Shown here: positions 8,968 through 39,084 of the stretch, one piece after another
Position numbering within the stretch: position 1 is the stretch's first letter
Layout of the letters: the number at the start of each line of letters is the position of its first letter
Source of the DNA: Citrus sinensis
Lineage: Eukaryota; Streptophyta; Magnoliopsida; Sapindales; Rutaceae
Direction of reading: 5' to 3'
DNA: 64,000 nucleotides
Assembly: GCF_022201045.2 (NCBI RefSeq)
Contig: NC_068564.1
Location: 2,108,001-2,172,000, forward strand
Program-made: the position numbers and the translations under genes
Notes under the pieces: generated by a model
Databases searched by the model: none
Seen by the model: the letters and a program-made list of their open reading frames with translations, nothing else
Told to the model about the DNA's origin: nothing

Positions 8968-9031
8968 TTCGTTTGGAGATCCAAACGGAAGCTGTAGATG
9001 TTATTACACAACTCGTTTGTGCCGTCGTTTC

Positions 9032-9040
9032 ATGTTTTGA
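9032..9040 (+). promoter_or_regulatory. Minimal uORF (ATG TTT TGA) before the HRGP-type start codon
   Basis: A two-codon uORF lies 15 nt upstream of the ATG at 9056. If transcription starts above it, ribosomes must reinitiate or leak past it. It is preserved in the right-copy fragment (about 18660-18668). Confidence 0.45.
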
Positions 9041-9055
9041 AAATTTGAAAACAAG

Positions 9056-11721
9056 ATGAGTAGTGTTCACGACAGCGTCGAGACCGTTAACGCCGCTGCA
9101 ACTGCCATAGTTTCAGCTGAGTCCCGCCTCCGGCCAGCCGCGATTCAGGTTCGTTTATGGGGTTGTAACTATTCTTCTCTTTAATGAGTTATTTTGTTTT
9201 TAGTATAAGTTTTGTCCGGGAAAAAAAAACAGAGTTTTATTATTATTATTATTATTTTACATACACATATTCACAGGTTATGTGTTTGGTAGCTGAGAAA
9301 CTGAGGGAAAATAAGAGAAAAAGGGATATGGGATCTTGGGTTTTTTATGCTGTTGTTTGGCCTTTGAAAGTTGGGAGCTTTATGAAATGTTTAATTAGTT
9401 TCGGTGTCGTGAATTAAAATTTGAGTATCAAAGTTTGTTTAGTTATTGCCTTTGGATATCCTTTTTGTGAGAAGTTTTGAGTCTTGATGCATCTTGTTTG
9501 ATTTGTTTGTGAAAAAAATTATCTTTTGGCTCTGCTTACTGATAAGAAATTGAAGTTATTTGTAGAAGAAATCTAAGATATTAATCGAGTTGCTATGTTA
9601 GGACCGTATAAAATTTTTATAAGTTGAGTTATTCCACCATGATGAATGACTGTGATTCAGAGTCAAAGAAGATAACTTTTGAGCAAATTGACTGGAGATG
9701 CTGTGATGTTTCCTGGAGTTGCGATAGCCCTGCAAAGCTTAAATGCAGTTGGGCTGCTGAAGCCCTCTTCAGGACCAAAAGTTAAAAGAGAAAATTTTTG
9801 GAGTTTGGATCTGGTGTAATTAGTGACACATGGGGAGTATAATTAATTGTTATCAAAGAATAATTAATTTTTAATATTTTCTGGGCAATTGAATAAAATT
9901 TTCAAAATAATAACTTGAATTAGTTTTTATTTGAAGTCATATCATTAATGGATCCTTCACCTAGCATTTGGTGACAATATATGCTAGATCGAGGTGGTGT
10001 AATGCTGGCTGTGTTTAAATGGCAGAAGTGTAGTTTTGAGTTGCAGTTGTGTTGCTATGCCGTTACATGTCTTCTTTTAAGTAATTAGCTCTAAATGCCT
10101 TAGTATGTTGATGAAAATATTTCAACCAACACTTTATTAATGATTGTAAACCTTGGCTGGTCTTGTTAGTCAGGGCTGGCATTTTTTAATTAAGGTATTT
10201 CTTTTGGTAAATTTTCTTAAGCTGAATGACTTAGGTTGAAAATGAAGCCAACTCTGATTCTGTCCAAACTTCTTATTCTGTATTTTTTTTTTTAAAAAAA
10301 AATTACTACAGAAAAGAAGATGGGGAAGCTGTTGGAGCCTCTACTGGTGTTTTGGATCTCATAAAACTAGCAAGCGGATTAGCCATGCTGTCCTTCTTCC
10401 TGAACCAATGGTAACAGGAGCCGCAGCCCCAGCTGCAGAAACTCAAGCCCACTCAACAGCCATTGTACTTCCCTTCATTGCTCCTCCCTCTTCTCCTGCA
10501 TCGTTCCTCCAATCAGACCCTTCATCTGCCACCCAATCACCTGCTGGATTGCTTTCCCTCAATTCCCTTTCTGTCAACGCCTATTCTCCTGGTGGACCTG
10601 CATCCATGTTTGCCATAGGCCCATATGCTCACGAAACACAGTTAGTTACACCACCTGTGTTTTCTGCCTTCACCACTGAACCATCTACTGCCCTTTGCAC
10701 CCCCCCTCCCGAATCTGTTCAATTGACAACTCCTTCATCTCCGGAAGTGCCATTTGCTCAACTGTTGACATCTTCACTGGAACGTGCTCGAAGAAACAGC
10801 GGGACTAATCAGAAGCTCTCATTATCCCATTATGGATACCAGCCTTATCAGCTGTACCCAGGAAGCCCAGGTGGTCAACTCATATCACCAGGTTCAGTAG
10901 TCTCTTACTCTGGCACTTCGTCTCCTTTCCCAGATAGACACCCGATTCTTGATTTCAGTGCGGCGGCGGCACCCAAGCTCTTGGGCTTTGAACATTTTAC
11001 TACTCGCAAGTGGGGGTCGAGGCTAGGTTCCGGATCTGTGACTCCAGATGGTGTGGGGATTGGTTCAAGAATGGGTTCAGGCTCTTTAACGCCTGATGGC
11101 GTGGGGCTTGGTTCAAGGTTGGGCTCAGGAACTGTAACACCTGATGGTGCAGGTCTTGGTTCAAGGCTGGGTTCAGGATCTTTGACGCCTGATGGAATGG
11201 GTCCGACCTCTAGAGATGGATTTGTGCGGGAAAATCAGATTTCTGAGGTGGCATCCCTTGCCAATTCAGATAATGGAACTAAAAGTGATGAACATATTAT
11301 TGATCACCGTGTTTCATTCGAGCTGAGTGGTGAAGAAGTTGCACGCTGTCTTGCAAATAAGTCAGCTGCTTCTCCCAGAATCGTCCCAGAATTTCCACAG
11401 GACATAGTTCCCGAGGGCGAAATACGAAGAGATGGAAAATTAACGGATAGTGAAAATCATTTTGAGTTGTGTCCTGAAGAGTCTTCTAATAGAATGCCTG
11501 AGAAAACTATGCGAGACGGAGAAGAGGAATATTGCTACCGAAAGCATCGTTCAATCACTCTCGGGTCAATCAAAGAGTTCAACTTTGATAACACAGAAGG
11601 AGAAGTCTCCAATAAGCCCTCCATCAACTCTGAATGGTGGGCCAACGAAAATGTTGGAAAGGAGTCTAAACCCTCCAACAACTGGACTTTTTTCCCAATG
11701 CTGCAGTCAGAGGCCAGCTGA
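9056..11721 (+). CDS. Pro/Ser-rich 'hydroxyproline-rich glycoprotein family' protein (At5g52430-like)
   Basis: Function unknown; I recognise the family from the Arabidopsis At5g52430/At4g25620 type. Two exons, 9056-9148 and 10312-11721, joined in phase 0, encode 500 residues. Exon 1 gives the conserved start MSSVHDSVETVNAAATAIVS. Exon 2 opens with a Trp/Cys-rich patch (KRRWGSCWSLYWCFGSHK), followed by the LPFIAPPSSPASFLQSDP signature and a long Ser/Pro/Thr-rich, probably disordered region. Residues 266-329 (11014-11205) are four tandem 16-residue repeats around LGSGSxTPDG. There is no signal peptide, so the name 'glycoprotein' comes from composition only. It sits upstream of the lost LSI2/YODA' segment in the left copy of the duplication. 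A truncated second copy lies at 18684. Confidence 0.85.
11014..11205 (+). repeat. Four in-frame 48-bp tandem repeats in the HRGP-type gene
   Basis: Four consecutive 16-codon units, each GSR(L/M)GSG(S/T)(V/L)TPDG plus three variable residues. The units have diverged at synonymous sites, so the array is not a recent slippage product. Confidence 0.85.
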
Positions 11722-13960
11722 CATTCAAATTTTCCGGCATGGCTTCACCTTTGAGCCCAGATTATAATACTGATTGCAAGGCTAAAAGCCGCTAGATGCT
11801 AGCCTGTAGATGTAACTATGAAATTCATGCCATTTTGTGAATTGTGATATAGCTTGGCATGTCTGGGATCAAGGATAGATGGATGGAATAGATGAATCTA
11901 CTGCCGATGTGAGAGTACTTTTTCTAATGCCTTTTGACTATAAGAAAATGCAGACAGGAAAACAGTTTTTAGTTATCCATAGTGTGGGTACTGTTAGAGC
12001 ATTCTTTTTAATATTTCTTTACCTTTATGTTATACCAAACATATAGCCTTGTATCATGGATTTTTTTTCCTTATGTAATAATAAGTTTATTTTTTGGCAC
12101 GAGGAATCCTTTATATCTGTTTGGTTATCATTTTGGTTATATAATCCCCTCAATTTACAAATGCGGGAGCTCACAGAGGGTTTGATGTTCACTTGCAACA
12201 TCAGTATGATCCTACTGGTGTTTCCGTGAAGTTTTCTCGTTGTTTGGTACTGGAGGCTCATAATCCTGATAATTCATATTGATTACTACTCATGTAACCG
12301 CATAAATGTATATTTTACTGGAATAATACACATCTAAGAATAGAAACTCCTCTGTTTTTGGCGTGTGAGAATGGAAACTCTTTTCTCTTCTTCCATTTTC
12401 CCACAAAATAAGATTATTCTGGAAATGTATATCAGAAACTCAAAAGCAGGCGAGACTGTTCCTGTCCCAAATCTTACTTGGGCTAAAAATAATAACATAA
12501 GTGGGTATATGAGTTTATAGGCAGCCTTTTCTTTCGAGTAGGTTTTTAGGGATAGTTTTACTCGTGGATTCATAAAGTTAGATACCACATCGAAGTATGT
12601 AATATCAGACGGGCTGTCAGAATGAAAGAGTTACCACATCGAACTAAAGAGTTTAGAATGTCAGAATGAAGTCAAAATTGGATATGAATGACATGAACTA
12701 GAGACGATTGCTATCCATAGAATACAGGATCTGTTAAGTCACCCGATTGGAAAAGAAGGGTCGTTGTGGATGATGATTGGGTGGATTGTTACAATTTTAA
12801 ATCTCAGATGGTCTAAAATTACGAATCTAATTAAAGATGCATATAATAAACTCTTGCCGGTTTGTAGGTTGTTGAGTTCTGCCCATGAATTTGTAATACA
12901 TTACTAGGTGGTCCATTTGTTAGAACATTGCTCCCTGCCGCTCAGAAATTCAGAGCGCGCGAGGTTTTTGAGTGAAGAGATAAATGTAGTAATTAGGTCA
13001 CGATATCAGGCCATTGTCATTTATGTGTGATTTATGCTGGCTGGCTAAGATGAGCATACCGAGCGGTGATAATGCTTGTTAGGTAACAAGCCAGCCCCAT
13101 GTCATTCTCCAGCGTCCTCATCCAACCAACACAAGAGACAAAACTCGGAAGTAATAACGAATCAAAAACCAAGAATGTGCTTTGGTCCACAGACCAGAAA
13201 TTAGAAGATCTTGGAAAAATGACAATAGGAAATATTTGTATTTTTTTTTTTAATGCGGATGTCCTATTTTTTTCCTTCTTAGACACGTTATTAAGGATAA
13301 AAGATATAAAGTTTGTATATAGTGGGCCTGATTATGGTCTTTAGTAAAAACTCTATAATATATAAAATTAAAAAAATAATTCAAATTAAAAAAAAAAATC
13401 AAAATCAAAACAGGCTTGAGGCTACCGTATCCCTAGCCATAAATTAAACAAGTGAAACAAATGTACTACAACACAAGACACCAACTGCCTACCGCATAGC
13501 CAACAGCCGCACCCTCTCAGCCTCATAGCCGTTATCGCCAGCGATCGTCATGAGCCCAGCATGTGAGTCAGAAAATCACAGCAGTAGGCAGTAGGTAGCC
13601 ACACAAGTCGCAAGCCCAGCACTCAACACAGTAGCAAACCTAGCACTAGTAGCGCAGCAGCAATGAACCCATGTGATCTTTGAGAAGAAGCCACGCAGGT
13701 CGTGAGCCCAACGCGCAACACAATAGCAAATTTTGATGTAGAAATCTGGTCGTATATGTTGAGATGATCAATTTATCTCGTCAACATTTAAATTTGTTTT
13801 GATGGGGAATAAACTTGTCCTCGAGCACTCAAACAAGTAGATTCCAATAATCATTAATTTCTGGTTTCGATTATTTCATTTCTTGTAAAAAAAAATAATT
13901 TCTATATTAATTTTGAATATATATTGTAAAGTTGCAATTGTAGTGAGGTTGTTTATTTAT
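11722..13960. other. HRGP 3' flank; GC-richer repeat segment at 13430-13740
   Basis: The first few hundred bases are probably 3' UTR. The sequence around 12580-12850 has repeat-like phrases such as TACCACATCGAA, but I cannot assign a class. From 13430 to 13740 the base composition turns GC-richer, with two diverged copies of an AGCCAC-CAAGTCG-AGCCCA-CAACACA phrase about 93 bp apart; the source is unknown. The part 12971-13940 recurs at 19441-20404 in the right copy. No gene is supported. Confidence 0.5.
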
Positions 13961-15337
13961 TTATGTCATGTCATCATGGGATCAATAAAATTAACGTACA
14001 ATATTAAATTAAAAAAAAGCATTAAGTGAGTAATATCACTAAAACATTGCATTAAATTTAAAGAAAAATTTTAAAATCTTAGTAAGATCGATCACGCAAG
14101 TCATTAAATAAACTAAAATATACTATAACGGTAAAATAAAAAATTATAATTACCAAAAAAAGTCACTTTCAAATAAAGAAAAATCTGGCAATAATCAAAT
14201 ACAGTACATAATATTAATACAGTATATAATATTACCTATTATTATTATTATTTTAGATGACATCTTGACGCATATTATATTTATTACATAATAAATTTAC
14301 AATTAGCAGCATGATGACGTGGCATGCTCCATCAGTCCATCTCCCCTAAAGATTTTTTTCTTTTTAAATTTTTTTGGGGTAACTAACGGTTAAAAACGAG
14401 TTTACGGTACTCGGAAATTTACCAATGCGGCAATCACCATCATTACTTTTTAATAATTCTCTCTCTTTGAACTCAACAACAACAAAATTCTTCTTGCAAA
14501 GGAATCCCTCAATACGCTGCCGTTTTGACTAGGGTTCTTTCATTTCTCCACGATTACATTCAACCAGTTCTCATCTCAACATTACGCAACTAATCTCTCA
14601 GACGTACGTTTCTTCTTCACTTCAGATTCAAACTGCCGTTAAAACATGTGCCGGTGAGTACAATTTTTTGTTATTATTATTAGTATTCTTTTTTATGTCT
14701 TTATTTTTAGCCTGTGCTGAGATCTGTCTATTAACGCCGTCGTTTTGAACTAAGTTAAAGATCGTAAAACTCTGTTTAGTTCATTTGAGAAAAATCCAGT
14801 TATTTTTAGTGAATGAATTTCAGATTTTATTTTTAGCGCACGTGTTTATTTTGCCAGTTCCTATATGTAGTTAGAAATTTGAACTAATATGATTTGCGTT
14901 GTGATTATATATAATGCACGTACAAGACGTGCTTAATTTACGCGGTTTTAAGTGTAAAAATGTGGTTCCTTTTTAGAGGTTGTTGGATGAGGTAGCTTTG
15001 CTAGTCAGTCAAAATTGGCTGACTAATTTTGACTTTTCATATTGCCTGTGAGGTTTTTTTTTTTTTTTTTTTTGATCAGTTCATTGGTTCAGTACAACAT
15101 TCAGACATGCAATTTTTCTCACTTTTGTGTAATTTGATTTTGGAGTTGACAGTGACATAGACACAGTCTTGCTAATTATTGACCATGTTATATTTTTCAT
15201 TGTTTTTTTTGTTCAGGTTTTAGAATTTTAGAATAAAGTGTTGCACGATTGGTTGTTGGTTTTAGAAATGGAATTGCCTTAGAAGAAATTTCCAGCTGCT
15301 TTATTCTTTTTTTGGTAAATATTGAAGAATAAGAAAA
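13961..15337 (+). promoter_or_regulatory. Upstream region and leader of the YODA pseudogene, core promoter deleted
   Basis: It aligns with 32383-33930 of the intact gene but lacks about 171 bp: 32881-33051, which holds the TATA-like AT run and the CT-rich initiation region. The junction is at about 14458. The 5'-UTR intron, both tiny uORFs (ATGs at 14646 and 15268) and a TGACGTGGCA bZIP-type motif (about 14314-14323) are still present. Confidence 0.7.
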
Positions 15338-18300
15338 ATGCGTTCTTGGTGGGGAAAGTCATCGTCGAAGAAAAAAGCAAGTAAGGATGGTATAATTTGC
15401 ACAATACATCAAAAAATTAAGATCACATGTGAAGGTAAAGCAAGCAGTAAATCAGGAGGGTCTCGCAGACATTGCAATGATACAGTTTCGGAGCTAGGAT
15501 CCCAGTCCCGAGCAGAATCTAGATCAACTTCCCCTTCCAAGCAAGTAGGGAGGAGTCAAAGTTTTGTTGAAAGGTCCAATGCTCAACCACTTCCACTTCC
15601 TGGTTTGCGCTCTGCAGCTGTAAGTCGTACAGCTTCTGAAATTAGTATCTCCACTAAGCCAAAACTGGAAAAAGGTTCCAAGTCTTCATTGTTTTTACCT
15701 CTTCCAAGACCGGCATGCATACGTAGTAGGGCAAATCCTGCTGACTTGGATGGAGATTTGATCACCGCCTCTATTTCCAGTGAGAGCTCCATTGATAGTG
15801 ATGATCAAACTGACTCCCGTCATCGCAGTCCGCTGGCAAATGACTATGACAATGGGACTAGAACAGCTGCAAGCAGCCCTTCCAGGTTAGCCTGCTCGTA
15901 ACTCATTAACCTGGACGCTTTGACAATGGATAAAAATGTAAATGGATGGGAAATTTGTGTTCACATGTTATTGATGTTTTATTATATCTACTTATTCCTG
16001 ATCAATTGACTCCATCTTTCTTTCCACCCCTGAAGTGTGATGCCCAAGGATCATCTTTCCAATGCCTCTCAAACAAGTTCAAGAGAGGAAAAAAAACCGG
16101 CAAATCTTTCATTGAGTAATCGTCTCTCCCCATCACCCAAACAAAGACGTTTAAGTGGTCATGTGCCAAATCTACAGGTTCCGTATCATGGTGCTTTCAG
16201 CAGGACAGCTCGTTGTCAAGTCCCTCCAGAAGTCCACTGAGAGCATTTGGATATTTGAGCAAGTCGTGAATTCTGCTTTCTGGTCTGGGAAGCCTTATGC
16301 AGATGTCACATTACTTGGCTCTGGCCACTGCTCTAGTCCAGGTTCTGGTCAAAATTCTGGGAATAATTCGATGGGAGGTGATATGTCAGGACAGTTATTT
16401 TGGCAACAGTTACAAAGCAGGGGTAGCCCAGAATATTCACCAATACCTAGTCCCAGAATGACTAGCCCAGGCCCCAGCTCCAGAATCCAAAGTGGTGCTG
16501 TCACCCCTATTCATCCTAGAGCAGGAGGTGCACCCATTGAGTCGCAGACAAGCTGGCCTGATGATGGAAAACAACAAAGCCACCGCTTGCCTCTTCCTCC
16601 TATAACAATATCCAATTCTTCTCCCTTTTCTCATTCAAATTCGGCTGCAACATCACCCTCTGTGCCGCGAAGTCCAGGAAGAATGGAAAATCCAGTTAGC
16701 CCCGAGTCACACTGGAAACAGGGAAAGATGCTGGGTAGAGGCACATTTGGACATGTTTATGTTGGTTTTAACAGGTTTGTGGTTTATGTTTGTTTTAACA
16801 GGTTTGCCACAAAGAATATTGCTTTTTTTTAATTTTTTTTAATGCATGTGTACTTTGATTTTATTAATAAACTGCTTGCAAAACAATTGTATTAACCTCC
16901 CATCAAATTTAGTACATTAGCAAGCTAAGTAGTTGAGATCAGTGTTAGCAGATTTTCTTGATTATCGATTACAAATGGCTCATTAGGACTGAGGTTTTTA
17001 AATATGATGTTTTAATCTGTTTTGGTATTTTTACATGTTGGTCATTATTTAAGTTTGTATGTATCTGATTTCTCCTCTTAACTGGTCCAGTGATAGTGGT
17101 GAAATGTGTGCAATGAAGGAAGTTACATTATTTGATGATGCCAAGTCAAAGGAGAGTGCTAAGCAGCTGATGCAGGTATGATCACTTCCAAGTATAACAG
17201 TCAGCTTTCAGTTTATTAGATAATGGTTTTTGTTTCTTTGCCTCCCCCCCGCTGCCTGCATCCTTTCTTTGAATAGTTTATTTAATTGCTCCCTTGTTTT
17301 GTAACATATGCATAGCTTTAAGAAAACATTCTTACTCGAGTTCTGTGGCAGGAAATTGTATTATTAAGTCGCTTACGGCATCCAAACATCGTGCAATACT
17401 ATGGATCTAAAACAGTAAGTATTTTTGTTCTATTTCCATTCACTGAAGCATGTGACAATTGTTATTTAAAGCTGTTGATATTTATTTTCAGACATTGTCT
17501 TTTCATATGGTACAAATATGACTATTGGATTTTTTTTCCCGAACAGGTTGAGGACAAACTTTATATATACCTGGAGTATGTATCTGGTGGGTCAATTTAT
17601 AAACTTCTCCAGGATTATGGACAGTTTGGCGAACCGGCAATTCGTAATTATACACAACAAATCTTGTCTGGGCTTGCATTCTTACACTCAAAGCATACAG
17701 TCCACAGGTGATAATCCTCCTATTCTTGAATAAGTTTGAAGCTGCTATATACAGATTAGCTACTCTGCTCAATTTGTACATTGTTTGTATTCTTAAATAA
17801 AGGGCATTTATTTTACAGGGACATTAAAGGAGCAAACATACTTGTGGATCCAAATGGGCGGGTCAAGCTGGCAGATTTTGGGATGGCAAAGCATGTAAGT
17901 TTAGGCATAATAATTTCTTTTAATAAATGTATAAATTGCATCTGATTAAACGAGAATTTAGCGAAACATTAAATGCTCTGTGCAGATTGCCGGCCATTCA
18001 TGTCCATTATCATTCAAGGGAAGCCATTACTGGATGGCTCCTGAGGTCAGAAATTATTCCTTTTTGTACCTGAACTCATTAATAACAACATGGTTCTCAA
18101 TTGTGATATCAAATCTAAATTTACACTCAGGTTATAAAGAACTCAAGTGGTTGCAATCTTGCTGTTGATATTTGGAGTCTTGGGTGCACTGTTTTGGAAA
18201 TGGCTACAACAAAACCACCTTGGAGCCAGTATGAAGGGGTCAGTACTGAAGCAACAGAAACGATCTTAAATTTTCATCTTTCTTATACAGAAAATGATAG

Positions 18301-18572
18301 TTTATGTTGTCCAGTTGGAGCTCAGTTCATTGTGTGAGATAGTTGCATGTTATGATCTGCAGGTTGCTGCTATGTTTAAGATTGGGAATAGTAAGGAACT
18401 CCCAACAATTCCAGATGACCTCTCTGATGAAGGAAAGGATTTTATTAGGTTGTGTTTGCAACGTAATCCCTTAAACCGTCCAACAGCAGTTAAGCTTTTG
18501 GATCACCCTTTTGTGAAGGGTGCTGCACCTTTGGAAAGAACTATTTTGGCCCCTGAGCTGAGTCGTTTGTGA
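15338..18572 (+). pseudogene. YDA: YODA-type MAPKKK pseudogene (left copy): frameshifted and 3'-truncated
   Basis: Near-identical copy of the gene at 33931. Exon equivalents are 15338-15885, 16036-16774, 17091-17175, 17352-17414, 17547-17707, 17819-17894, 17986-18045, 18131-18238 and 18363 to the junction. Exon 2 has a 7-base loss at about 16204 and a 2-base gain at about 16252 relative to the intact copy. The frame is lost and a stop follows at about 16238-16240, so no kinase can be made from the normal start. Further decay includes GSPYW changed to GSHYW in the kinase P+1 loop. The gene ends at the duplication breakpoint (18558), where filler sequence adds a few codons and a TGA at 18570-18572, removing the C-terminal region. 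Its core promoter is also missing. Confidence 0.9.
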
Positions 18573-18596
18573 ACTCTACTCATCTTATTTTCAAAT
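18559..18596. other. Templated filler at the tandem-duplication junction
   Basis: This joins YODA' (ending at 18558) to the HRGP' 5' flank (from 18597). Bases 18569-18596 are the reverse complement of 18671-18698, with one mismatch in 28. Bases 18563-18571 repeat 18641-18649 in direct orientation. Two local templates in opposite orientation at a junction indicate error-prone templated end joining or replication template switching. Confidence 0.85.
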
Positions 18597-18683
18597 TCGT
18601 TTGGAGATCCAAACGGAAGCTGTAGATGTTATTACACAACTCGTTTGTGTCGTCGTTTCATGTTTTGAAAATTTGAAAATAAG

Positions 18684-18862
18684 ATGAGTAGTGTTCACGA
18701 CAGCGTCGAGACCGTTTACGCCGCTGCAACTGCCATAGTTTCAGCTGAGTCCCGCCTCCGGCCAGCCGCGATTCAGGTTCGTTTATGGGGTTGTAACTAT
18801 TCTTCTCTTTAATGGGTTATTTTGTTTTTAGTATAAGTTTTGTCCGGGAAAAAAAAAAAGAG

Positions 18863-18896
<34 letters not shown>

Positions 18897-19799
18897 TTAC
18901 ACACACATATTCACAGGTTATGTGTTTGGTAGCTGAGAAACTGAGGGAAAATAAGAGAAAAAGGGATATGGGATCTTGGGTTTTTATATGCTGTTGTTTG
19001 GCCTTTGAAAGTTGGGAGCTTTATGAAATGTTTAATTGGTTTCGGTGTCGTGAATTAAAATTTGAGTATCAAAGTTTGTTTAGTTATTGCCTTTGGATAT
19101 CCTTTTGGTGAGAAGTTTGAGGCTTGATGCATCTCGTTTGATTTGTTTGTGAAAAGTTTTTTCTTTTGGCTCTGCTTACTGATAAGAAATTGAAGTTATT
19201 TGTAGAAGAAATCTAAGATATTAATCGAGTTGCTATGTTAGGACCGTATAAAATTTTTTTAAGTTGAGTTATTCCACCATGATGAATGACTGTGATTCAG
19301 AGTCAAAGAAGATAAGTTTTGAGCAAATTGACTGGAGATGCTGTGATGTTTCCTGGAGTTGCGATAGCCCTGCAAAGCTTAAATGCAGTTGGGCTGCCGA
19401 AGCCCTCTTCTGGACCAAAAGTCAAAAGAGAAAATTTTTGAGTGGAGAGATAAATGTAGTAATTAGGTCACAATATCAGGCCATTGTCATTTATGTGTGA
19501 TTTATGCTGGCTGGCTAAGATGAGCATACCGAGCGGTGATAATGCTTGTTAGGTAACAAGCCAGCCCCATGTCATTCTCCAGCGTCCTCATCCAACCAAC
19601 ACAAGAGACAAAACTCGGAAGTAATAACGAATCAAAAACCAAGAATGTGCTTTGGTCCACAGACCAGAAATTGGAAGATCTTGGAAAAATGACAATAGGA
19701 AATATTTGTATTTTTTTTTTAATGCGGATGTCCTATTTTTTTCCTTCTTAGACACGTTATTAAGGATAAAAGATATAAAGTTTGTATATAGTGGGCCTG
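18684..19799 (+). pseudogene. HRGP-type gene fragment (right copy): exon 1 only, exon 2 deleted
   Basis: Exon 1 (18684-18776) is kept, with one Asn-to-Tyr change and its splice donor. The intron continues to about 19440, where the sequence jumps to the equivalent of 12971, deleting 3,170 bp that include all of exon 2. The break shares TTTTTG in both parental sequences (9795-9800 and 12965-12970). The native promoter was not duplicated. An ATT microsatellite in the intron is longer here (about 18866-18897) than in the left copy (about 9238-9257). Confidence 0.9.
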
Positions 19800-20430
19800 A
19801 TTATGGTCTTTAGTAAAAACTCTATAATATATAAAATAAAAAAATAATTCAAATTAAAAAAAAAAATCAAAATCAAAACAGGCTTGAGGCTACCGTATCC
19901 CTAGCCATAAATTAAACAAGTGAAACAAATGTACAACACAAGACACCAACTGCCTACCGCATAGCCAACAGCCGCACCCTCTCAGCCTCATAGCCGTTAT
20001 CGCCAGCGATCGTCATGAGCCCAGCATGTGAGTCAGAAAATCACTGCAGTAGGCAGTAGGTAGCCACGCAAGTCGCAAGCCCAGCACTCAACACAGTAGC
20101 AAACCTAGCACTAGTGGCGCAGCAGCAATGAACCCATGTGATCTTTGAGAAGAAGCCACGCAAGTCGTGAGCCCAACACGCAACACAATAGCAAATTTTG
20201 ATGTAGAAATCTGGTCGTATACGTTGAGATCATCAGTTTATCTCGCCAACATTTAAATTTGTTTTGATGGAGAATAAACTTGTCCTCGAGCACTCAAACA
20301 AGCAGATTCCAATAACCATTAATTTCTAGTTTCGATTATTTCATTTCTTGTAAAAAAAAATTAATTTCTATATTAATTTTGAATATATATTATAAAGTTA
20401 CAATTCTTCTTTTGCTTGTTTATTTATTTA

Positions 20431-29042: not shown

Positions 29043-30363
29043 GCTTGCTTTAGGGGTGGCAATCAAATCCGAACCCGGATCGGACCCGGATTGAACCCGA
29101 AAAATCTGGTCTGGGTTCAACCCGCACCGGTATAGTTTTTATCCGAAATCCGGATCAGTTTTTGACAATCCGTATTTTTCTGGTCCGGATCCGATTTCAG
29201 GTGAACCCGTAAATCTGGAACCCGGACCCGGATATTATTTATTTTAATATTAATTTTGATCCGTAAATCCGTAATTATAAATAGAAAAATTAAAAAAAAA
29301 ACGAAAACAAAAGTGAAACCCTAGAATCTAGATCTCTCTCGTCTCGTTCCTCTAATCCTCTCTCGAAATTTCTCCTTCAACCTAAAAAAAATTATTGTAA
29401 ATCTGTAATTTCTCCTTTCAATCTCTCAAGTCTCATCCGTAAACCGTAATCCGTTCCTCTCTCAATCTCTCTCACCCGTGAACCGTGACTCATTGCTCAT
29501 CTCAGTCCTCCATCGTCACTTAATCTCTCTCACTCTCTCTGCAACTCTCCTATAATCTATTCTTCAGATCAGATCAGATCCTTCGCGTCGTGGCTTGTCA
29601 TCACCTTCACGGCGAGGCTTGTTCGTTTCATCACTCTGTCGCGGCCAGCAAAAGGGGTTGAAATCCACCTCAGTCTCGCTGCTGTGTTCTGTGTTCATCA
29701 GCATATACTTCAGTTGCTGCTGTGAATATTTGTGAGTCTCGGCTTTTCTCTTTACAATTTATGCTCTATTACACTTTGATTTTCCCTCTTTGCAATTTTT
29801 GTGCTGTTATGCTTTGAGCTTGTATTGCTGCTGGCACAATTTGATTTTTCCTCAGACATGGTTTTCTTTGTATATGACATATGAGAGCACTTGACTAATT
29901 ATAAGCTTTTTGTTTTTCTGAATTATTTGCCTCTTTTTGTTCTTTGTTTTTCTGGCACAAGGAGAAATTATTGTCTAAAACAGAACAGTTGCCATTTTTC
30001 TTCTGCCGCGTATTGTTGGTTTTGTGCATTAAGAGTTGGTTAGTGAGTAAGCTTAGAATTGAATTTGAAGTATAATTAGCCAAAGGGCTGCTGCCTATGG
30101 CTAGCTGCATGAATGGTAGTTCTGAGCCTGACTAGCATTAATACTCTGTTTTGCTTGCTTCTGCTTTCTCTCACTGAAAATGGGGTTCGACCTTGTCATG
30201 TGCTTTTACTACTTGTGTATACTGAGTTGCTTGAAGAGTAATGACTCTTTCCAGTTAGTATTGTACACTCCTGATCCTTTTCCTCGATTATAAATTTAGA
30301 ATAATCTGCCAATGCAGTAAGAATTGTTTAGGATATCTGCAAATTTGTCGCAGGCACTTTTTT

Positions 30364-30500
30364 GAGCACTGGTGGGCTGTGGGCAGTGGCTGGAAATCTG
30401 AGCACTAGTGGGCAGTGGCTGGAAATTTGAGCATTGGTGGGCTGTGGTCAGTGGCTAGAAATCTGAGCACTAGTGGGCAGTGGCTGGAAATTTCAGCTTT
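30364..30500 (+). repeat. Higher-order minisatellite (36+29 bp unit, twice) inside the hAT element
   Basis: Units beginning GAGCACT(G/A)GTGGGC and ending GGCT(G/A)GAAAT(C/T)T alternate between about 36 and 29 bp, giving a ~65-bp dimer present twice. Confidence 0.8.
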
Positions 30501-30606
30501 AAATTATAGAATTATGTTATGAATTTGTATTTGTGGATGTTTATTACTTTAAAACTTTGAATTTTAGATTTTATATTGTGTATTTGTGTTGTATTTGTTT
30601 TAGAAG

Positions 30607-30865
30607 CTGGATGTGTTATTATGTTCTGTTATTTGGCCCTGTGTCCAGCAAATTTTGATGAACCAAAGTTAAACAATTTGGTTCTAGTGGGCTGGTGGTT
30701 CTGGATGTGTTTATATGTTCTGTTTTTTTGCCCTATGTCCGGCAAATTTTGATGAGCCAAAGTTAAACAATTTGGTTCTAGTAGTCTAGTGATGTCACTG
30801 ATGTGTTATATGTTCTTTTTTTTTGCCTTTTATCCATCAAATTTTATTGAACCAATTCTAGGAAG
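30607..30865 (+). repeat. Tandem repeat, ~95-bp period, about 2.7 copies, inside the hAT element
   Basis: Units start at 30607, 30701 and 30797, each with TGATGTGT or GGATGTGT, then TATGTTCTG/T, then a TCC(A/G)GCAAATTTTGATGA-like phrase and AACAATTTGGTTCTAG. The third unit is the most diverged and is truncated. Confidence 0.75.
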
Positions 30866-31148
30866 AATTGTGTAATGTGTTGTTGGGGAAAAGATTAAAA
30901 CATTAAACCCCATCCCCTGTGCCTTGTTAAAATAAGTTATATGGTCTCTAAAAAAAAAAAAAAAGCAATCCGGGTTCAAAACTCGGAATCCGAAAACCCA
31001 GATTTTTCCGGGTTGAACCCGGACCGGAGTCGAATTTAAAAAACCCGGGTTTAATGCGGGTCCGGTTATGAAAATTTTGTGTCCGGGTCCGGATCCGGAA
31101 CAGCCAAACCCGGACCCGGACCCGAAAATTGCCATCCCTAGCTTGCTT

Positions 31149-32382
31149 GCTTCCGTGAGTTAGGCCACTTTATTCTTTCATTTCCAATGACGCTCACCTT
31201 CGTTTTAACTTTTGCTTTGCTTTGCTTGTACAATCATAAATATAAATTAAAATTAATATGTTGATGATTTTATTTATTATTCACTTATTGTATTTAAAAG
31301 AAATTAAAATTAAGGGAATTTTTCCTTTTTTTTTTTATAGATTTTTCATTTTAAGTTATAAGAATTTGGTCTATGTAACAATAAGCATGTATATACATAT
31401 ATCGCTCGGTAGCTAGAATTTAGATGACTACATTAAAGTCAACTCTTAAGTCAAACTCGTTTTTATTAACACTAGACTTTTAAGTGTACAGAACCTTTGG
31501 CTAAAAGTTGGACCCAACACAAAGGTCAACTAACCTCAAAATGCCACTAAAATGTTTTTTTTTTTTTTTGAAATGGAAAGCAATTTGAGATTTTTTTTTT
31601 TTTTTACTTTTTGGGATGTAATTGAAAACATTTTTGTGTAGAGACTTTTTGTTGGGTAACGTTTTTCATGGAAATACAAAATTAATTATGTTTCACGTTC
31701 CACATATGCTAAATACTTAATTCAAAAAATTAAAATGAGAATTTATCATGAACAAGAGATTCTGATTATTTGATAAAGCTCTCAACAAATTACAAAAATA
31801 TATATTAAATAAAGTATTTTAATGATTTATCTCTCAGTTATTGATTAAAATGAGGCTATCCTATCACATGAGAGTCTATAACCCGCTAGCAATATAAATT
31901 TCATTGATTAAATGTACATTTATCATTAAATTTAAATATAATATAATTAGATGTGAATAATTTACGCAATTAAATTTAGATCTCCAAAATTAAACTCAAG
32001 AACTATTGTTTTTAAAAATTATATGGGCCCCCTAAAATGTCTTGCCTATAATAGAATCCTTGCAAACTCGTGAAATAAAAATAAAACTTAGAAAATGACT
32101 TATTACAAATAAAAAATAATTTCTAAATAAAATCCAATCTATTGACTGCGATTTCATACTATTCAGTTTCACATTTTCATTAATCTCTTAATAAATTCGA
32201 ATTATCATCAATATTTTGCTATATTTTTAAAGGATGGTGCTATTTTAATTTAAACTCTTCATTTATAATTTTAATACAAATATTGAGTCATTTATTTCAA
32301 GTCACCCAACGGTGGATGATCATCGTTCAAAACAATGCCTAAAAATTAAAAAAAAATGTTAGAAAAATCTTAGGTGAGATGA
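31149..32382. other. AT-rich spacer upstream of YODA, no gene seen
   Basis: Low-complexity AT-rich sequence. It is absent from the left duplicate, whose YODA homology begins at about 32383. No ORF or RNA gene was recognised. Confidence 0.5.
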
Positions 32383-33930
32383 ATTATGTCATGTCATCAT
32401 TGGAATCAATAAAACTAACGTACAATATTAAATAGAAAAACATTAAGTGAGTAATATCACTAAAACATTACATTAAATTTAAAGAAAAATTTTAAAATCT
32501 TAGTAAGATCGACCACGCAAGTCATTAAATAAACTAAAATATACTATAACGGTAAAATAAAAAATTATAATTACCAAAAAAAAGTCACTTTCAAATAAAG
32601 AAAAATCTGGCAATAATCAAATACAGAACATAATATTAATACAGTACATAATATTATCTATTATTATTATTATTTTAGATGACATCTTGACGCATATTAT
32701 ATTTATTACATAATAAATTTATAATTAGCAGCATGATGACGTGGCATGCTCCATCAGTCCATCTCCCCTAAAGATTTTTTTCTTTTTAAATTTTTTTGGG
32801 GTAACTAACGGTTAAAAACGAGTTTACTGTACTCGGAAATTTACCAATGCGGCAATCACCATCATTACTTTTTAATAATTATAATATAATATAATTTTAA
32901 TATATATATATATATGTATTTTTTTTAATAATTGTAAAATCAACGCACAGACAACTCCATGTCTTGGGCTCAGACATACTCTCTCTCTCTTCCCTTTCCT
33001 TCTCTTTCTCTCTCTACATTTCTATCAATCTCTGTCTTCTTTTTTCGCGATCTCTCTCTTTGAACTCAACAACAACAAAATTCTTCTTGCAAAGGAATCC
33101 CTCAATACGCTGCCGTTTTGACTAGGGTTCTTTCATTTCTCCACGATTACATTCAACCAGTTCTCATCTCAACATTACGCAACTAATCTCTCAGACGTAC
33201 GTTTCTTCTTCACTTCAGATTCAAACTGCCGTTAAAACATGTGCCGGTGAGTACAATTTTTTGTTATTATTATTAGTATTCTTTTTTATGTCTTTATTTT
33301 TAGCCTGTGCTGAGATCTGTCTATTAACGCCGTCGTTTTGAACTAAGTTAAAGATCGTAAAACTCTGTTTAGTTCATTTGAGAAAAATCCAGTTATTTTT
33401 AGTGAATGAATTTCAGATTTTATTTTTAGCGCACGTGTTTATTTTGCCAGTTCCTATATGTAGTTAGAAATTTGAACTAATATGATTTGCGTTGTGATTA
33501 TATATAATGCACGTACAAGACGTGCTTAATTTACGCGGTTTTAAGTGTAAAAATGTGGTTCCTTTTTTGAGGTTGTTGGATGAGGTAGCTTTGCTAATCA
33601 GTCAAAATTGGCTGACTAATTTTGACTTTTCATATTGCCTGTGAGGTTTTTTTTTTTTTTTTTTTTGATCAGTTCATTGGTTCAGTATAACATTCAGACA
33701 TGCAATTTTTCTCACTTTTGTTTAATTTGATTTTGGAGTTGACAGTGACATAGACACAGTCTTGCTAATTATTGACCATGTTATATTTTTCATTGTTTTT
33801 TTTGTTCAGGTTTTAGAATTTTAGAATAAAGTGTTGCACGATTGGTTGTTGGTTTTAGAAATGGAATTGCCTTAGAAGAAATTTCCAGCTGCTTTATTCT
33901 TTTTTTGGTAAATATTGAAGAATAAGAAAA
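32383..33930 (+). promoter_or_regulatory. YODA promoter, leader and 5'-UTR intron with two tiny uORFs
   Basis: A TATA-like ATATATATATATATGTAT run lies at about 32900-32919, and a CT-rich Y-patch at about 32980-33060. A TGACGTGGCA bZIP-type motif lies upstream near 32735. The leader exon ends at 33246 (donor 33247-33248) and resumes at 33810. After splicing, an ATG at 33239 reads four codons to a stop formed across the exon junction. A second uORF, ATG at 33861, also has four codons. The main ATG is 33931. The same layout is in the left copy except for the missing core promoter. Confidence 0.6.
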
Positions 33931-36900
33931 ATGCGTTCTTGGTGGGGAAAGTCATCGTCGAAGAAAAAAGCAAGTAAGGATGGTATAATTTGCACAATAC
34001 ATCAAAAAATTAAGATCACATGTGAAGGTAAAGCAAGCAGTAAATCAGGAGGGTCTCGCAGACCTTGCAATGATACAGTTTCGGAGCTAGGATCCCAGTC
34101 CCGAGCAGAATCTAGATCAACTTCCCCTTCCAAGCAAGTAGGGAGGAGTCAAAGTTTTGTTGAAAGGTCCAATGCTCAACCACTTCCACTTCCTGGTTTG
34201 CGCTCTGCAGCTGTAAGTCGTACAGCTTCTGAAATTAGTATCTCCACTAAGCCAAAACTGGAAAAAGGTTCCAAGTCTTCATTGTTTTTACCTCTTCCAA
34301 GACCGGCATGCATACGTAGTAGGGCAAATCCTGCTGACTTGGATGGAGATTTGATCACCGCCTCTATTTCCAGTGAGAGCTCCATTGATAGTGATGATCA
34401 AGCTGACTCCCGTCATCGCAGTCCGCTGGCAAATGACTATGACAATGGGACTAGAACAGCTGCAAGCAGCCCTTCCAGGTTAGCCTGCTCGTAACTCATT
34501 AAACTCGATGCTTTGACAATGGATAAAAATGTAAATGTATGGGAAATTTGTGTTCACATGTTATTGATGTTTTATTATATCTACTTATTCCTGATCAATT
34601 GACTCCATCTTTCTTTCCACCCCTGAAGTGTGATGCCCAAGGATCATCTTTCCAATGCCTCTCAAACAAGTTCAAGAGAGGAAAAAAAACCGGCAAATCT
34701 TTCATTGAGTAATCGTCTCTCCCCATCACCCAAACAAAGACGTTTAAGTGGTCATGTCCCAAATCTACAGGTTCCGTATCATGGTGCTTTCAGCAGTGCT
34801 CCTGACAGCTCGTTGTCAAGTCCCTCCAGAAGTCCACTGAGAGCATTTGGTAGTGAGCAAGTCGTGAATTCTGCTTTCTGGTCTGGGAAGCCTTATGCAG
34901 ATGTCACATTACTTGGCTCTGGCCACTGCTCTAGTCCAGGTTCTGGTCAAAATTCTGGGAATAATTCGATGGGAGGTGATATGTCAGGACAGTTATTTTG
35001 GCAACAGTTACAAAGCAGGGGTAGCCCAGAATATTCACCAATACCTAGTCCCAGAATGACTAGCCCAGGCCCCAGCTCCAGAATCCAAAGTGGTGCTGTC
35101 ACCCCTATTCATCCTAGAGCAGGAGGTGCACCCATTGAGTCGCAGACAAGCTGGCCTGATGATGGAAAACAACAAAGCCACCGCTTGCCTCTTCCTCCTA
35201 TAACAATATCCAATTCTTCTCCCTTTTCTCATTCAAATTCGGCTGCAACATCACCCTCTGTGCCACGAAGTCCAGGAAGAGTGGAAAATCCAGTTAGCCC
35301 CGAGTCACACTGGAAAAAGGGAAAGATGCTGGGTAGAGGCACATTTGGACATGTTTATGTTGGTTTTAACAGGTTTGTGGTTTATGTTTGTTTTAACAGG
35401 TTTGCCACAAAGAATATTGCTTTTTTTAAATTTTTTTTAATGCATGTGCACTTTGATTTTATTAATAAACGGCTTGCAAAACAATTGTATTAACCTCCCA
35501 TCAAATTTAGTACATTAGCAAGCTAAGTAGTTGAGATCAGTGTTAGCAGATTTTCTTGATTATCGATTACAAATGGCTCATTAGGACTGAGGTTTTTAAA
35601 TATGATGTTTTAATCTGTTTTGGTATTTTTACATGTTGGTCATTATTTAAGTTTGTATGTATCTGATTTCTCCTCTTAACTGGTCCAGTGATAGTGGTGA
35701 AATGTGTGCAATGAAGGAAGTTACATTATTTGATGATGCCAAGTCAAAGGAGAGTGCTAAGCAGCTGATGCAGGTATGATCACTTCCAAGTATAACAGTC
35801 AGCTTTCAGTTTATTAGATAATGGTTTTTGTTTCTTTGCCTCCCCCCCGCTGCCTGCATCCTTTCTTTGAATAGTTTATTTAATTGCTCCCTTGTTTTGT
35901 AACATATGCATAGCTTTAAGAAAACATTCTTACTCGAGTTCTGTGGCAGGAAATTGTATTATTAAGTCGCTTACGGCATCCAAACATCGTGCAATACTAT
36001 GGATCTAAAACAGTAAGTATTTTTGTTCTATTTCCATTCACTGAAGCATGTGACAATTGTTATTTAAAGCTGTTGATATTTATTTTCAGACATTGTCTTT
36101 TCATATGGTACAAATATGACTGTTGGATTTTTTTTCCCGAACAGGTTGAGGACAAACTTTATATATACCTGGAGTATGTATCTGGTGGGTCAATTTATAA
36201 ACTTCTCCAGGATTATGGACATTTTGGCGAACCGGCAATTCGTAATTATACACAACAAATCTTGTCTGGGCTTGCATTCTTACACTCAAAGCATACAGTC
36301 CACAGGTGATAATCCTCCTATTCTTGAATAAGTTTGAAGCTGCTATATACAGATTAGCTACTCTGCTCAATTTATACATTGTTTGTATTCTTAAATAAAG
36401 GGCATTTATTTTACAGGGACATTAAAGGAGCAAACATACTTGTGGATCCAAATGGGCGGGTCAAGCTGGCAGATTTTGGGATGGCAAAGCATGTAAGTTT
36501 AGGCATAATAATTTCTTTTAATAAATGTATAAATTGCATCTGATTAAATGAGAATTTAGCGAAACATTAAATGCTCTGTGCAGATTGCCGGCCAGTCATG
36601 TCCATTATCATTCAAGGGAAGCCCTTACTGGATGGCTCCTGAGGTCAGAAATTATTCCTTTTTGTACCTGAACTCATTAATAACAACATGGTTCTCAATT
36701 GTGATATCAAATCTAAATTTACACTCAGGTTATAAAGAACTCAAGTGGTTGCAATCTTGCTGTTGATATTTGGAGTCTTGGATGCACTGTTTTGGAAATG
36801 GCTACAACAAAACCACCTTGGAGCCAGTATGAAGGGGTCGGTACTGAAGCAACAGAAACGATCTTAAATTTTCATTTTTTCTTATACAGAAAATGATAGT

Positions 36901-39084
36901 TTATGTTGTCCAGTTGGAGCTTAGTTCATTGTGTGAGATAGTTGCATGTTATGATCTGCAGGTTGCTGCTATGTTTAAGATTGGGAATAGTAAGGAACTC
37001 CCAACAATTCCAGATGACCTCTCTGATGAAGGAAAGGATTTTATTAGGTTGTGTTTGCAACGTAATCCCTTAAACCGTCCAACAGCAGCTGAGCTTTTGG
37101 ATCACCCTTTTGTGAAGGGTGCTGCACCTTTGGAAAGAACTATTCTGGCCCCTGAGCCTTCAGATGTTCCCCCTGGAGTTACAAATGGCATAAAAGCTCT
37201 GGTAGTTTCATTTCTCTTGATATTCCATTTCGTCTCTATTGGGATTGAGATTGTTGTGTATGCTTGATATTTGGTGCATGTTCTCCCTTTGGGTTCCTGT
37301 TTATTTTAGCAATGGAATTTAGATGTACCACGAATATTAAAATGGTGATATTGTCTTGATATGCTTTTCACATTCTTAACTGTCTCATATCTTTAATGTG
37401 CAGAAGGCATTATAGAATTTTTTTTCAACTGCTGTCTTATTCCAGTGAATCAATTAATTTGTAGGAAGTTCGTGTGATACATTGTGTTATCACATCAATT
37501 TTAAACTTTCAATGTTAGAGATATGCAATTCTGCTAGTTGGATAAGTGTTTGACTCGTGGTTGGAAAGAACATGTGCAGAATGTAGTGAAAATTGTTCTA
37601 AAATCTCAGGCAAAAGCAGATGATCATTATATAACTTGTTCTTTTTCTGGCTACTATGACATGGGAGTCTTATTTATTTAATCTCTCTAGCAAAATATTG
37701 ACAATCTTTCTAAATTCAGGTTCCTTCCTAGTCATATTGACATAATGCGTGCAGTAAAGCTCCATTGGGTTAGTACATAGAGATGTACTAACTAAAGCAA
37801 TTAAAGCTGCAGGGATGCTTAAGACAGTTTGCTAGTTTATCTTTAGTTGTGTATCACAATGAGATAAAGGTTTAGGGAAGTATTGTCCACTCAGTTGGGT
37901 GTTTAATGTGAGTTATGGATAATATAGAGTCAACTTTTTCCATCAAAACTTGGATTTGTGTATGGACAACAGCTGTTCCAGTTACATGGATATTTTGGGG
38001 GCAAATGTGAAGTAAGGCTTCAGTGAATAAATTTAGGTTTAGAGGGACAAATGAGACACCAAAGTAAACTTCTATACCAAATCTAGAAAATGATTAGTCC
38101 TGTTGATTTTAAATTGTTGTGATAAGCTTAGATAACAGTGATGAGACTTTTTTTTTTCATTATTTGATATTTGATGTGTGTTTGATTGCACATAAGAGCG
38201 GAGAAAATTCTTTGTGTTTTTTTCTTCGATTTTTGTACTTGGGCAATGACCTTGGGACTGTCTAAAGAAACTGGCTTGTTTTCCTAATGTCCATCTAGAG
38301 CATATCCTCTTCTTTGTATGCGGCCAATTTCTGACTATTGGTTTGGCTCATTAATTAACTTTCAGGGCATTGGACAATTGAGAAACGTTTCCACTTTTGA
38401 TACTGAGAGACTTGCTGTTCATTCATCAAGAGTTTCGCAAACTTCTCTCAATGCCAGGTCTCTCTTTTTCTCGCTTTCTTACACAAAAATTAGCAATGAT
38501 AAAAGTAACTCAACATCATCATCTTCACGAGCTTGAATTCTGATTTCTGTTACCTGATCTGCAGTGATATCAATATTTCAATGAACAGATCGTGCCCCGT
38601 GTCACCCATTGGAAGCCCTCTTTTACATCCAAGGTCACCACAACACCTGAATGGAAAAATGTCTCCTTCTCCTATATCTAGCCCTCGGACCACTTCAGGT
38701 GCATCCACACCTCTAACGGGTGGCAGTGGTGCTATACCATTCAATCACCTGAAACAACCAGTTTACTTGCAAGAGGGTTTTGGGAACTTGGCGAAGCCCA
38801 CAAGTAACTTTTATGGCAATGGCCCTTCTTACCAAGATACAAATCCTGACATATTCCGAGGGATGCAGCCAGGAGGGTCTCACATATTCTCAGAATTAGT
38901 ACCCTCCGAAAATGATGTTTTAGGAAAGCAATTGGGAAGGCCAGTTCATGGGGAACCGTACGATGGACAGTCGGTCTTAGCTGATCGTGTGTCTCGGCAG
39001 TTCCTGAAGGATCAGGTGAAGATGAATCCATCCCTAGATCTAAGTCCCCTATCTCCTTTGCCCGCCCGGACTAGTGGTATCTAA
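33931..39084 (+). CDS. YDA: YODA-type MAP kinase kinase kinase (intact copy)
   Basis: MEKK-class MAPKKK that activates MKK4/5-type kinases; in Arabidopsis YODA controls stomatal and embryo patterning. Eleven coding exons: 33931-34478, 34629-35372, 35689-35773, 35950-36012, 36145-36305, 36417-36492, 36584-36643, 36729-36836, 36962-37201, 38366-38457 and 38565-39084, together 898 residues (Arabidopsis YODA has about 880). The N-terminal 400 residues are Ser/Pro-rich, including the YODA-like stretch [18 protein letters not shown]. The kinase domain is about 411-665: Gly loop GRGTFGHV, Lys440, HRD 533-535, DFG 553-555 and SPYWMAPE ending at 579. The C-terminal tail is Ser/Pro-rich ([19 protein letters not shown]). 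Exon 2 ends at a duplicated donor, and the exon 8 donor GTCGGT is weak. It faces the SDR cluster tail-to-tail. Confidence 0.92.
35346..35401 (+). promoter_or_regulatory. Duplicated 5' splice site at the end of YODA exon 2
   Basis: Bases 35373-35399 imperfectly repeat the last 25-27 bases of exon 2, so CAG|GTTTG occurs twice, 27 nt apart (donors at 35373 and 35400). Use of the second donor would add nine in-frame residues with no stop, right after the glycine-rich loop. The left pseudogene has the same arrangement. Confidence 0.6.

Follow-up and report, generated by a model that had tools for sequence, protein, structure and literature searches.

The window analysed here is a 64,000-nucleotide stretch of Citrus sinensis DNA (GCF_022201045.2, contig NC_068564.1, positions 2,108,001 to 2,172,000). 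It contains two direct copies, L and R, of a block with parts or all of three genes: HRGP, an LSI2-like transporter, and YODA. In window coordinates, the genes and the larger segments are:

8968-18558, + strand: block copy on the left (L), holding a complete HRGP and a YODA that lacks its last exons; LSI2 is deleted
9056-9148, + strand: HRGP exon 1 in L (31 codons), whose ATG is 88 bp inside the block edge; the peptide also occurs in the gene model P0121 (see below)
9801-12964, + strand: 3.16 kb kept in L and deleted from R; the R join, 19435-19440, has the 6-bp microhomology TTTTTG
10312-11721, + strand: HRGP exon 2, intact in L and absent from R
15338-18569, + strand: YODA-L, exons 1-9, with GT-AG sites at 8 of 8 introns; changes at 16203 and 16254 shift the exon 2 frame by a net -5
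18596-37157, + strand: right copy (R) of the block; HRGP exon 1 remnant, LSI2 and YODA intact, with YODA extending beyond the block to 39084
18684-18776, + strand: what remains of HRGP exon 1 in R, preceded by 88 bp of its upstream DNA
20432-32383, + strand: 11.95 kb R-only segment by self-BLAST (LSI2 and its flanks), deleted from L
24965-27236, + strand: LSI2-like transporter, whose exon 1 matches Pfam CitMHS (PF03600); exon ends were read by eye
29051-31140, + strand: hAT-like element within the R-only segment, with TAGGGRTGGCAAT termini and an 8-bp target duplication, GCTTGCTT
33931-39084, + strand: YODA-R, 11 exons

YODA-R is a YODA-type MAPKKK: its near matches, among the matches listed, include YODA-like proteins of Pistacia and Mangifera. 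Both of the YODA kinase pieces that we scanned gave Pfam kinase matches (one below the curated cut-off). HRGP exon 2 is open in L, YODA-R reads through its 11 exons to give 898 amino acids, YODA-L is frameshifted, and exon 1 of YODA differs between L and R at just 2 of 548 positions (15471 and 15809). The frame of YODA-L enters the filler sequence at the tandem junction for 4 codons and then stops, so that its end reads APELSRL. Scanning the window for Rfam families and tRNAs gave no hits.

Self-BLAST of the window bears out the two copies lying side by side. The direct matches are 8968-9800 with 18596-19440 (96.1% identity), 12965-13964 with 19435-20431 (96.9%), 13961-14458 with 32384-32880 (96.8%), and 14458-18558 with 33051-37157 (99.0%). 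The gaps between them are where they had been predicted: 3164 bp in R (HRGP exon 2), and 11952 bp (LSI2) plus 170 bp in L. The outside flanks are not duplicated (E of 1e-10, over 60 bp). At these thresholds, matches between flank and block are limited to both ends of a dispersed element at 297-770, and the 40-64 kb part of the window matches only itself. There is no similarity beyond the edges of the L and R blocks at E of 1e-10. The two outer edges (8768-9168 compared with 36957-37357) share no match longer than 8 bp, so we rejected duplication through flanking repeats (NAHR). It had also been argued that adding back the losses gives 21.7 kb for both copies independently. This is circular and not independent evidence, because any two collinear sequences end up at nearly the same length when each is credited with the gaps of the other.

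The remaining features are the joins:

13925-13964, + strand: join left in L by the LSI2 deletion; 17 bp matching 27471-27487, then 16 bp matching 20416-20431, then 32384 onward, with 5- and 4-bp overlaps
14457-14459, + strand: join left in L by the 170-bp deletion upstream of YODA (the missing part is R 32881-33050), with 1-bp microhomology
18556-18597, + strand: tandem junction with patchwork filler; AGCTGAGTC (identical to 18743-18751), TCGTTTGTG (identical to 18641-18649), then an inverted piece

The inverted piece, 18569-18597, copies 18670-18698 at 28 of 29 bases. Its longest exact run is 22 bp, and the maximum in 500 local simulations was 11. The other 16 bases of the filler are covered by the two local pieces; this occurred in 1 of 20000 shuffles and in none of about 20000 16-mers from the window. 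At the LSI2-deletion join, the 17-bp match comes from 13.5 kb away (60 simulations reached a maximum of 12). Both of these joins are templated patchworks, like the traces of serial template switching: short local copies, some of them inverted, with microhomology at each switch. The repair pathway may have been polymerase-theta-like end joining (TMEJ) or microhomology-mediated break-induced replication (MMBIR); TMEJ and MMBIR leave similar junction marks. The mechanism is read from the junction sequence alone. (For polarising the filler allele, the sole match of the paralogous stretch C3, described below, to the HRGP exon 1 region is 11 bp.)

The original prediction was that the three genes were duplicated whole and that one copy of each was then lost, in a complementary pattern. 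One intact copy per gene does remain. But the tandem junction lies inside the ninth exon of YODA, and only beyond the right edge of R do exons 10 and 11 appear. Similarly, R begins 88 bp before the ATG of HRGP, with no match past the block edges. The genes were not all present in two complete copies before the losses, and we consider this history improbable. One tandem duplication followed by deletions stands, on the evidence of C3 and of gene models with the same junction on a second contig, but reciprocal loss describes the locus only in part: HRGP and YODA were cut by the duplication breakpoints, and LSI2 alone was ever duplicated whole.

The paralogous stretch C3 carries a single-copy trio, HRGP (+), LSI2 (+), and YODA (-), within about 36 kb, with YODA inverted relative to our locus. 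Six in-frame protein query pieces match C3 at 50-72%. Because this trio has LSI2, R has kept the ancestral LSI2 and L has lost it by deletion. LSI2 and YODA are probably adjacent in Nyssa sinensis as well, because a gene model from that species (P0109) fuses LSI2 (318 of 398 residues identical) with YODA. We also considered whether the gaps are insertions into the other copy rather than deletions, as the joins have 4- and 6-bp overlaps that might be mistaken for target-site duplications. This is scarcely credible: the extra segments carry parts of genes whose trio stands on C3, and the patchwork join sits in the copy without the segment. For the gene segments, the C3 trio led us to reject insertion. 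The exceptions are the 170 bp and the 2.1 kb hAT-like element, which may be a true later insertion in the R-only segment.

Another worry, raised with the original prediction, was that the blocks are alternative haplotypes placed end to end by a phasing or assembly error. Sweet orange arose from pummelo and mandarin, and its haplotypes are 96.2% alike according to PMC9832951 (section 6), a value close to that between L and R in the first three matching blocks (96.1-96.9%). (The same paper gives DVS_B as a whole an 87.4% pummelo origin.) But we have several pieces of evidence against an artefact. First, the filler at the junction is pieced together from local sequence. Second, gene models on a second Citrus sinensis contig of 32056483 bases include both an R-type YODA (P0004) and an L-type YODA (P0121); we placed them on one contig by its equal size. 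P0121 reads APELSRL, then VETVNAAATAIVSAESRLRPAAIQ of HRGP exon 1, then sequence spanning the R deletion join, so the junction and the R deletion are both common to the second contig's gene models. Third, P0140, a gene model from Citrus x changshan-huyou, ends in the junction peptide APELSRL. A caveat is that P0121 and P0140 are gene predictions and that the haplotypes were compared as proteins. Nevertheless, these models place the duplication in more than one haplotype or assembly, and P0004 and P0121 led us to reject the artefact, which we regard as extremely unlikely.

Because the second contig's gene models have the same junction, the duplication was, to judge from these models, already in place when the two sweet orange haplotypes diverged. 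It had been called recent, which holds only as a relative term. In 821 of 821 aligned residues P0004 and P0002 are the same, leaving aside a 28-residue extra stretch. Of the L-specific residues, 6 of 7 are common to both haplotypes. Single residues are weak markers, because P0208, a partial model from Citrus unshiu, combines the L residue at 401 with R-like residues elsewhere, and because threonine at residue 158 is also present in two unrelated matches. The protein collection was clustered at 90% identity, so there may be L-type models other than those among the matches listed.

The divergence between L and R is uneven. It is 2.2% and drops to 0.7% past about 14300; the best change point is near 14301 (0 of 300 permutations reach it). 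Noncoding sequence has 49 events in 2225 positions left of YODA versus 15 in 2065 within YODA (Fisher p = 7e-5). The lower divergence of YODA is not accounted for by a single duplication and uniform drift. Gene conversion after the duplication could have re-homogenised the two YODA copies, a two-step history that is compatible with our preferred explanation. Residue 393 also fits conversion: L is like R there, whereas the L-type model on the other contig shares its residue with Melia and Acer. But we found no tract with a sharp far end, the L-specific residues common to both haplotypes show no conversion over them since, and an uneven mutation rate or selective constraint could give the same pattern. 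We see conversion as a serious possibility, a little short of an even bet.

Overall, it is highly probable that HRGP-LSI2-YODA was copied in tandem once by template switching, that the two end genes were cut in the process, and that losses came later. A stretch of about 20-22 kb would have been copied by serial template switching. Synthesis would have run out of YODA inside the ninth exon, landed briefly at three wrong sites (two direct and one inverted) within about 155 bp of the block's HRGP end, and then copied the block again. Gene content would have been unequal from birth, with only LSI2 doubled whole. YODA-L would have kept its kinase domain, lost its last two exons, and run into HRGP exon 1, and HRGP-R would have been cut at its promoter, with 88 bp of upstream DNA. 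All this would precede the separation of the haplotypes. Later, LSI2 would have been lost from L, again by template switching, and HRGP exon 2 from R, by a plain microhomology deletion. The order of these losses is our best reading of the locus, and the remnants probably have no function. The decay of YODA-L would include P573H in the kinase activation segment, before the haplotype split, and the frameshift, on this window's haplotype only.

Could the L-type gene of the second haplotype be a working chimera, with the YODA kinase part, no C-terminal tail, HRGP exon 1, and a former intron? We find this very doubtful. A YODA-HRGP fusion across the junction is predicted by splicing in P0121, but the frame in the window stops 4 codons past the YODA homology, as does P0140. 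A search with the chimeric tail matched P0121 alone (1 of 168 candidates), so only one gene-model cluster is known to carry the full fusion. Against a working chimera, the P0121 and P0140 models lack the normal exon 1 start and exon 4. (The missing exon 4 may be an annotation fault, because public models of the intact YODA-R lack it too.) If the chimera were real, its activation-segment change from P to H could turn it into a dominant-negative inhibitor of the YODA pathway. This window's haplotype would then have lost the chimera by frameshift and promoter deletion, and citrus hybrids would segregate for it.

None of the titles listed by a literature search aimed at this locus concerned it. 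We compared the locus with systems described in three sources. As in PMC5460883, breakpoints lie within genes and join part of one gene to part of another; the citrus case differs in being in a plant, older than the haplotype separation, and already decayed. Templated insertions by polymerase-theta end joining, which reach about 35% in Arabidopsis thaliana (review PMC12426944), are also patchworks of several short pieces primed by minimal base-pairing. In contrast to those cases, one locus here carries two patchworks, the first at a roughly 20 kb tandem duplication and the second at a 12 kb gene deletion, and polymerase theta is a candidate enzyme. Maize fractionation proceeds by short deletions with flanking direct repeats of 3-24 bp (PMC2893956). 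Genes were lost by deletion here too, with flanking repeats of 6 and 1 bp at two joins, but after a small tandem duplication instead of tetraploidy, and with only LSI2 redundant.

The locus is a legible record of one plant tandem duplication, of its making and its undoing. Because the duplication and the 12 kb deletion each left patchwork joins, template switching probably both created and removed a gene copy here. The locus also illustrates a trap: intact genes split between two copies mimic reciprocal loss, even though the breakpoints alone decided two of the three outcomes. For citrus, the junction is a marker that is exact to the base in this window and is seen as a peptide in the second sweet orange contig and in a third assembly. 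Overlying this marker is the haplotype-specific decay of a truncated MAPKKK.

Self-comparison of the window revealed two direct copies, left (L) and right (R), of a block holding HRGP, LSI2, and YODA. (We mark each gene copy with -L or -R.)

8968-18558, direct orientation relative to R: L copy
18596-37157, direct orientation relative to L: R copy

These coordinates match those of the original prediction, as do the two differences in 548 bases between L and R in YODA exon 1. We also take the gene names from that prediction. Close relatives are also named YODA by their sources, and LSI2 matches CitMHS in Pfam; HRGP has no Pfam family match. L lacks 11952 bp (20432-32383 in R) and 170 bp (32881-33050 in R), and R lacks 3164 bp (9801-12964 in L). 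In each YODA copy, a 27-bp tandem repeat covers the splice donor of exon 2 (16755-16806 and 35353-35404), so the repeat probably predates the duplication.

Were these gaps deletions from one copy or insertions in the other? The original prediction argued for deletions because adding back the gaps gives 21.7 kb for each copy. The figure is right, but it is not evidence for deletion, because any two collinear sequences give equal totals. Gene order elsewhere is informative. The three genes occur once each on a 50 kb stretch of another contig, C3, where HRGP, LSI2, and YODA follow one another in that order within about 36 kb; six in-frame query pieces match there at 50-72%.

C3:1728211-1764400 (L011-L015): paralogous trio, YODA inverted relative to the window, found with in-frame query pieces

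In addition, a gene model from Nyssa sinensis joins LSI2 and YODA. From these arrangements, we infer that LSI2 originally sat between the other two genes and that L lost it. (A further HRGP relative is at C5:38906595-38907218, on a third contig.)

The R-only segment includes an element that we presume to be hAT-like. In the self-comparison, both of its ends recur near the left edge of the window, in a shorter relative at 297-770. If the element inserted after the duplication, the block would originally have measured about 19.6 kb.

29051-31140, inside the R-only segment: 2090-bp element with termini TAGGGRTGGCAAT and 8-bp target duplication GCTTGCTT

The block did not include all three genes in full. 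The tandem junction falls within the ninth exon of YODA, and exons 10 and 11 (38366-39084) occur once, to the right of R, so YODA-L never had the C-terminal part. YODA-L keeps the kinase exons, with GT-AG ends at all eight introns, and its frame runs four codons beyond the YODA homology (...APELSRL) to a stop. Similarly, R begins just 88 bp upstream of the HRGP ATG, so HRGP-R never had its full upstream region. LSI2 is the only gene of the trio that was duplicated whole. The proposal that dosage returned to one by loss thus holds for LSI2, by deletion, but the outcomes for YODA and HRGP were set by the breakpoints.

The junction between L and R contains a patchwork of filler (18556-18597). First, 18569-18597 repeats 18670-18698 in inverted orientation, with 28 of 29 bases matching and 22 of them in a single exact run (versus a maximum of 11 in 500 local simulations). 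Second, 18556-18571 consists of two overlapping 9-base pieces, from 18743-18751 and 18641-18649. (Only 1 of 20000 shuffled 16-mers, and none of about 20000 from the window, could be built from two pieces of at least 8.) No template is more than about 155 bp from the landing point, and at the sole template base that differs between L and R (9052/18680), the filler carries the R base. Matches between the outer edges of the block do not exceed 8 bp. We read this composition as the mark of serial template switching. Judging from the sequence, the duplication would have arisen this way, by polymerase theta or by break-induced replication with microhomology, which would leave a junction that looks the same. 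For polymerase theta, a review calls templated insertions a "smoking gun" and describes patchworks of several segments (PMC12426944).

The join in L where LSI2 was deleted has 17 bp from 27471-27487, then 16 bp from 20416-20431, and then continues from 32384; these pieces overlap by 5 and 4 bases. The longest match in 60 simulations of the window was 12, versus 17 here. Given these templated pieces, the loss of LSI2 also looks like the product of template switching. There are 6 bp of microhomology at the HRGP deletion join in R and a single base at the 170-bp deletion join in L. Near the LSI2 join, 13865-13924 is the end of a dispersed repeat: 6 of the 26 genome matches listed for this stretch stop exactly at 13924, and the templated patch begins 13 bp beyond.

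In noncoding sequence, L and R differ by 49 events in 2225 positions to the left of YODA, versus 15 in 2065 across the introns of YODA and its 5' region (Fisher p = 7e-5). A change point fits best near 14301 (from 2.2% to 0.7%), and none of 300 permutations equalled it. For comparison, the report on the phased Valencia genome gives haplotype A as 97.1% mandarin in origin and counts about 4.35 million SNVs separating the sweet orange haplotypes (PMC9832951). Over about 299 Mb, this is about 1.5%, which is below the left-hand value and above the YODA value. This fits a duplication older than the separation of the haplotypes, with later conversion over YODA. Alternatively, constraint or mutation rate may account for the low divergence in YODA.

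We also considered a second haplotype. Two predicted Citrus sinensis proteins, P0121 (650 aa, 23 members) and P0004 (849 aa), come from a contig of 32056483 bases. (We place both on one contig because the sizes are equal.) Of these, P0004 belongs to the R type and P0121 to the L type. P0121 carries the filler peptide APELSRL, followed by VETVNAAATAIVSAESRLRPAAIQ of HRGP exon 1 and by sequence matching 19261-19497, which spans the R deletion join. If these protein models are correct, the second haplotype also carries the duplication, its filler, and the deletion in HRGP-R. Among the 240 proteins listed, APELSRL is found only in P0121 and in P0140 (from Citrus x changshan-huyou), where it is the C-terminal end. 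The full YODA-HRGP chimera is a predicted model in one protein cluster only.

Seven residues are peculiar to L (158, 401, 413, 563, 573, 658, and 659 in R numbering). Six are common to P0121 and P0140, and 413 is private to the window. (Outgroups do not polarise residue 401, at which the partial Citrus unshiu model P0208 carries the L residue alongside R-like residues at other positions; T at 158 is also in two other matches among the proteins listed.) P573H is in the activation segment, and proline is present at this motif in 213 of the 215 motif-bearing proteins listed, the exceptions being P0121 and P0140. (The motif is absent from 25 of the 240 listed.) The frameshift in the window's YODA-L is absent from both. 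Because six of the L residues are common to these proteins and the frameshift is private to the window, YODA-L was probably altered before the haplotypes parted and then decayed further here. Both proteins lack the normal exon 1 start (P0121 begins there in another frame), which points to a separate lesion in them.

YODA-R (33931-36305) has changes as well: H to P at residue 45 and Q to H at 506 are common to P0004 and another Citrus sinensis model, P0002, and are absent from P0001, L, Melia, Pistacia, and Acer. These changes are peculiar to the R copy of sweet orange contigs. Both public models omit exon 4 entirely and exon 2 in part (34629-36012), though the sequence is open.

To the right of the blocks, self-comparison found several diverged repeats that match one another (40550-63800), and one minus-strand ORF among them matches short-chain dehydrogenase. 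These repeats probably form a tandem gene array that a retroelement has split. The retroelement has integrase core and RVT_2 matches between its terminal repeats. The 338-aa frame has no Pfam match at E 0.001.

43228-48237: Copia-type retroelement whose 477-bp terminal repeats are 93.3% alike
51505-52518, minus strand: 338-aa open frame

Overall, the tandem duplication is real. It belongs to a known kind, and two template-switch joins can be read unusually clearly. The story of gene loss is corrected: breakpoints decided the fate of two of the three genes, and deletion decided the third.
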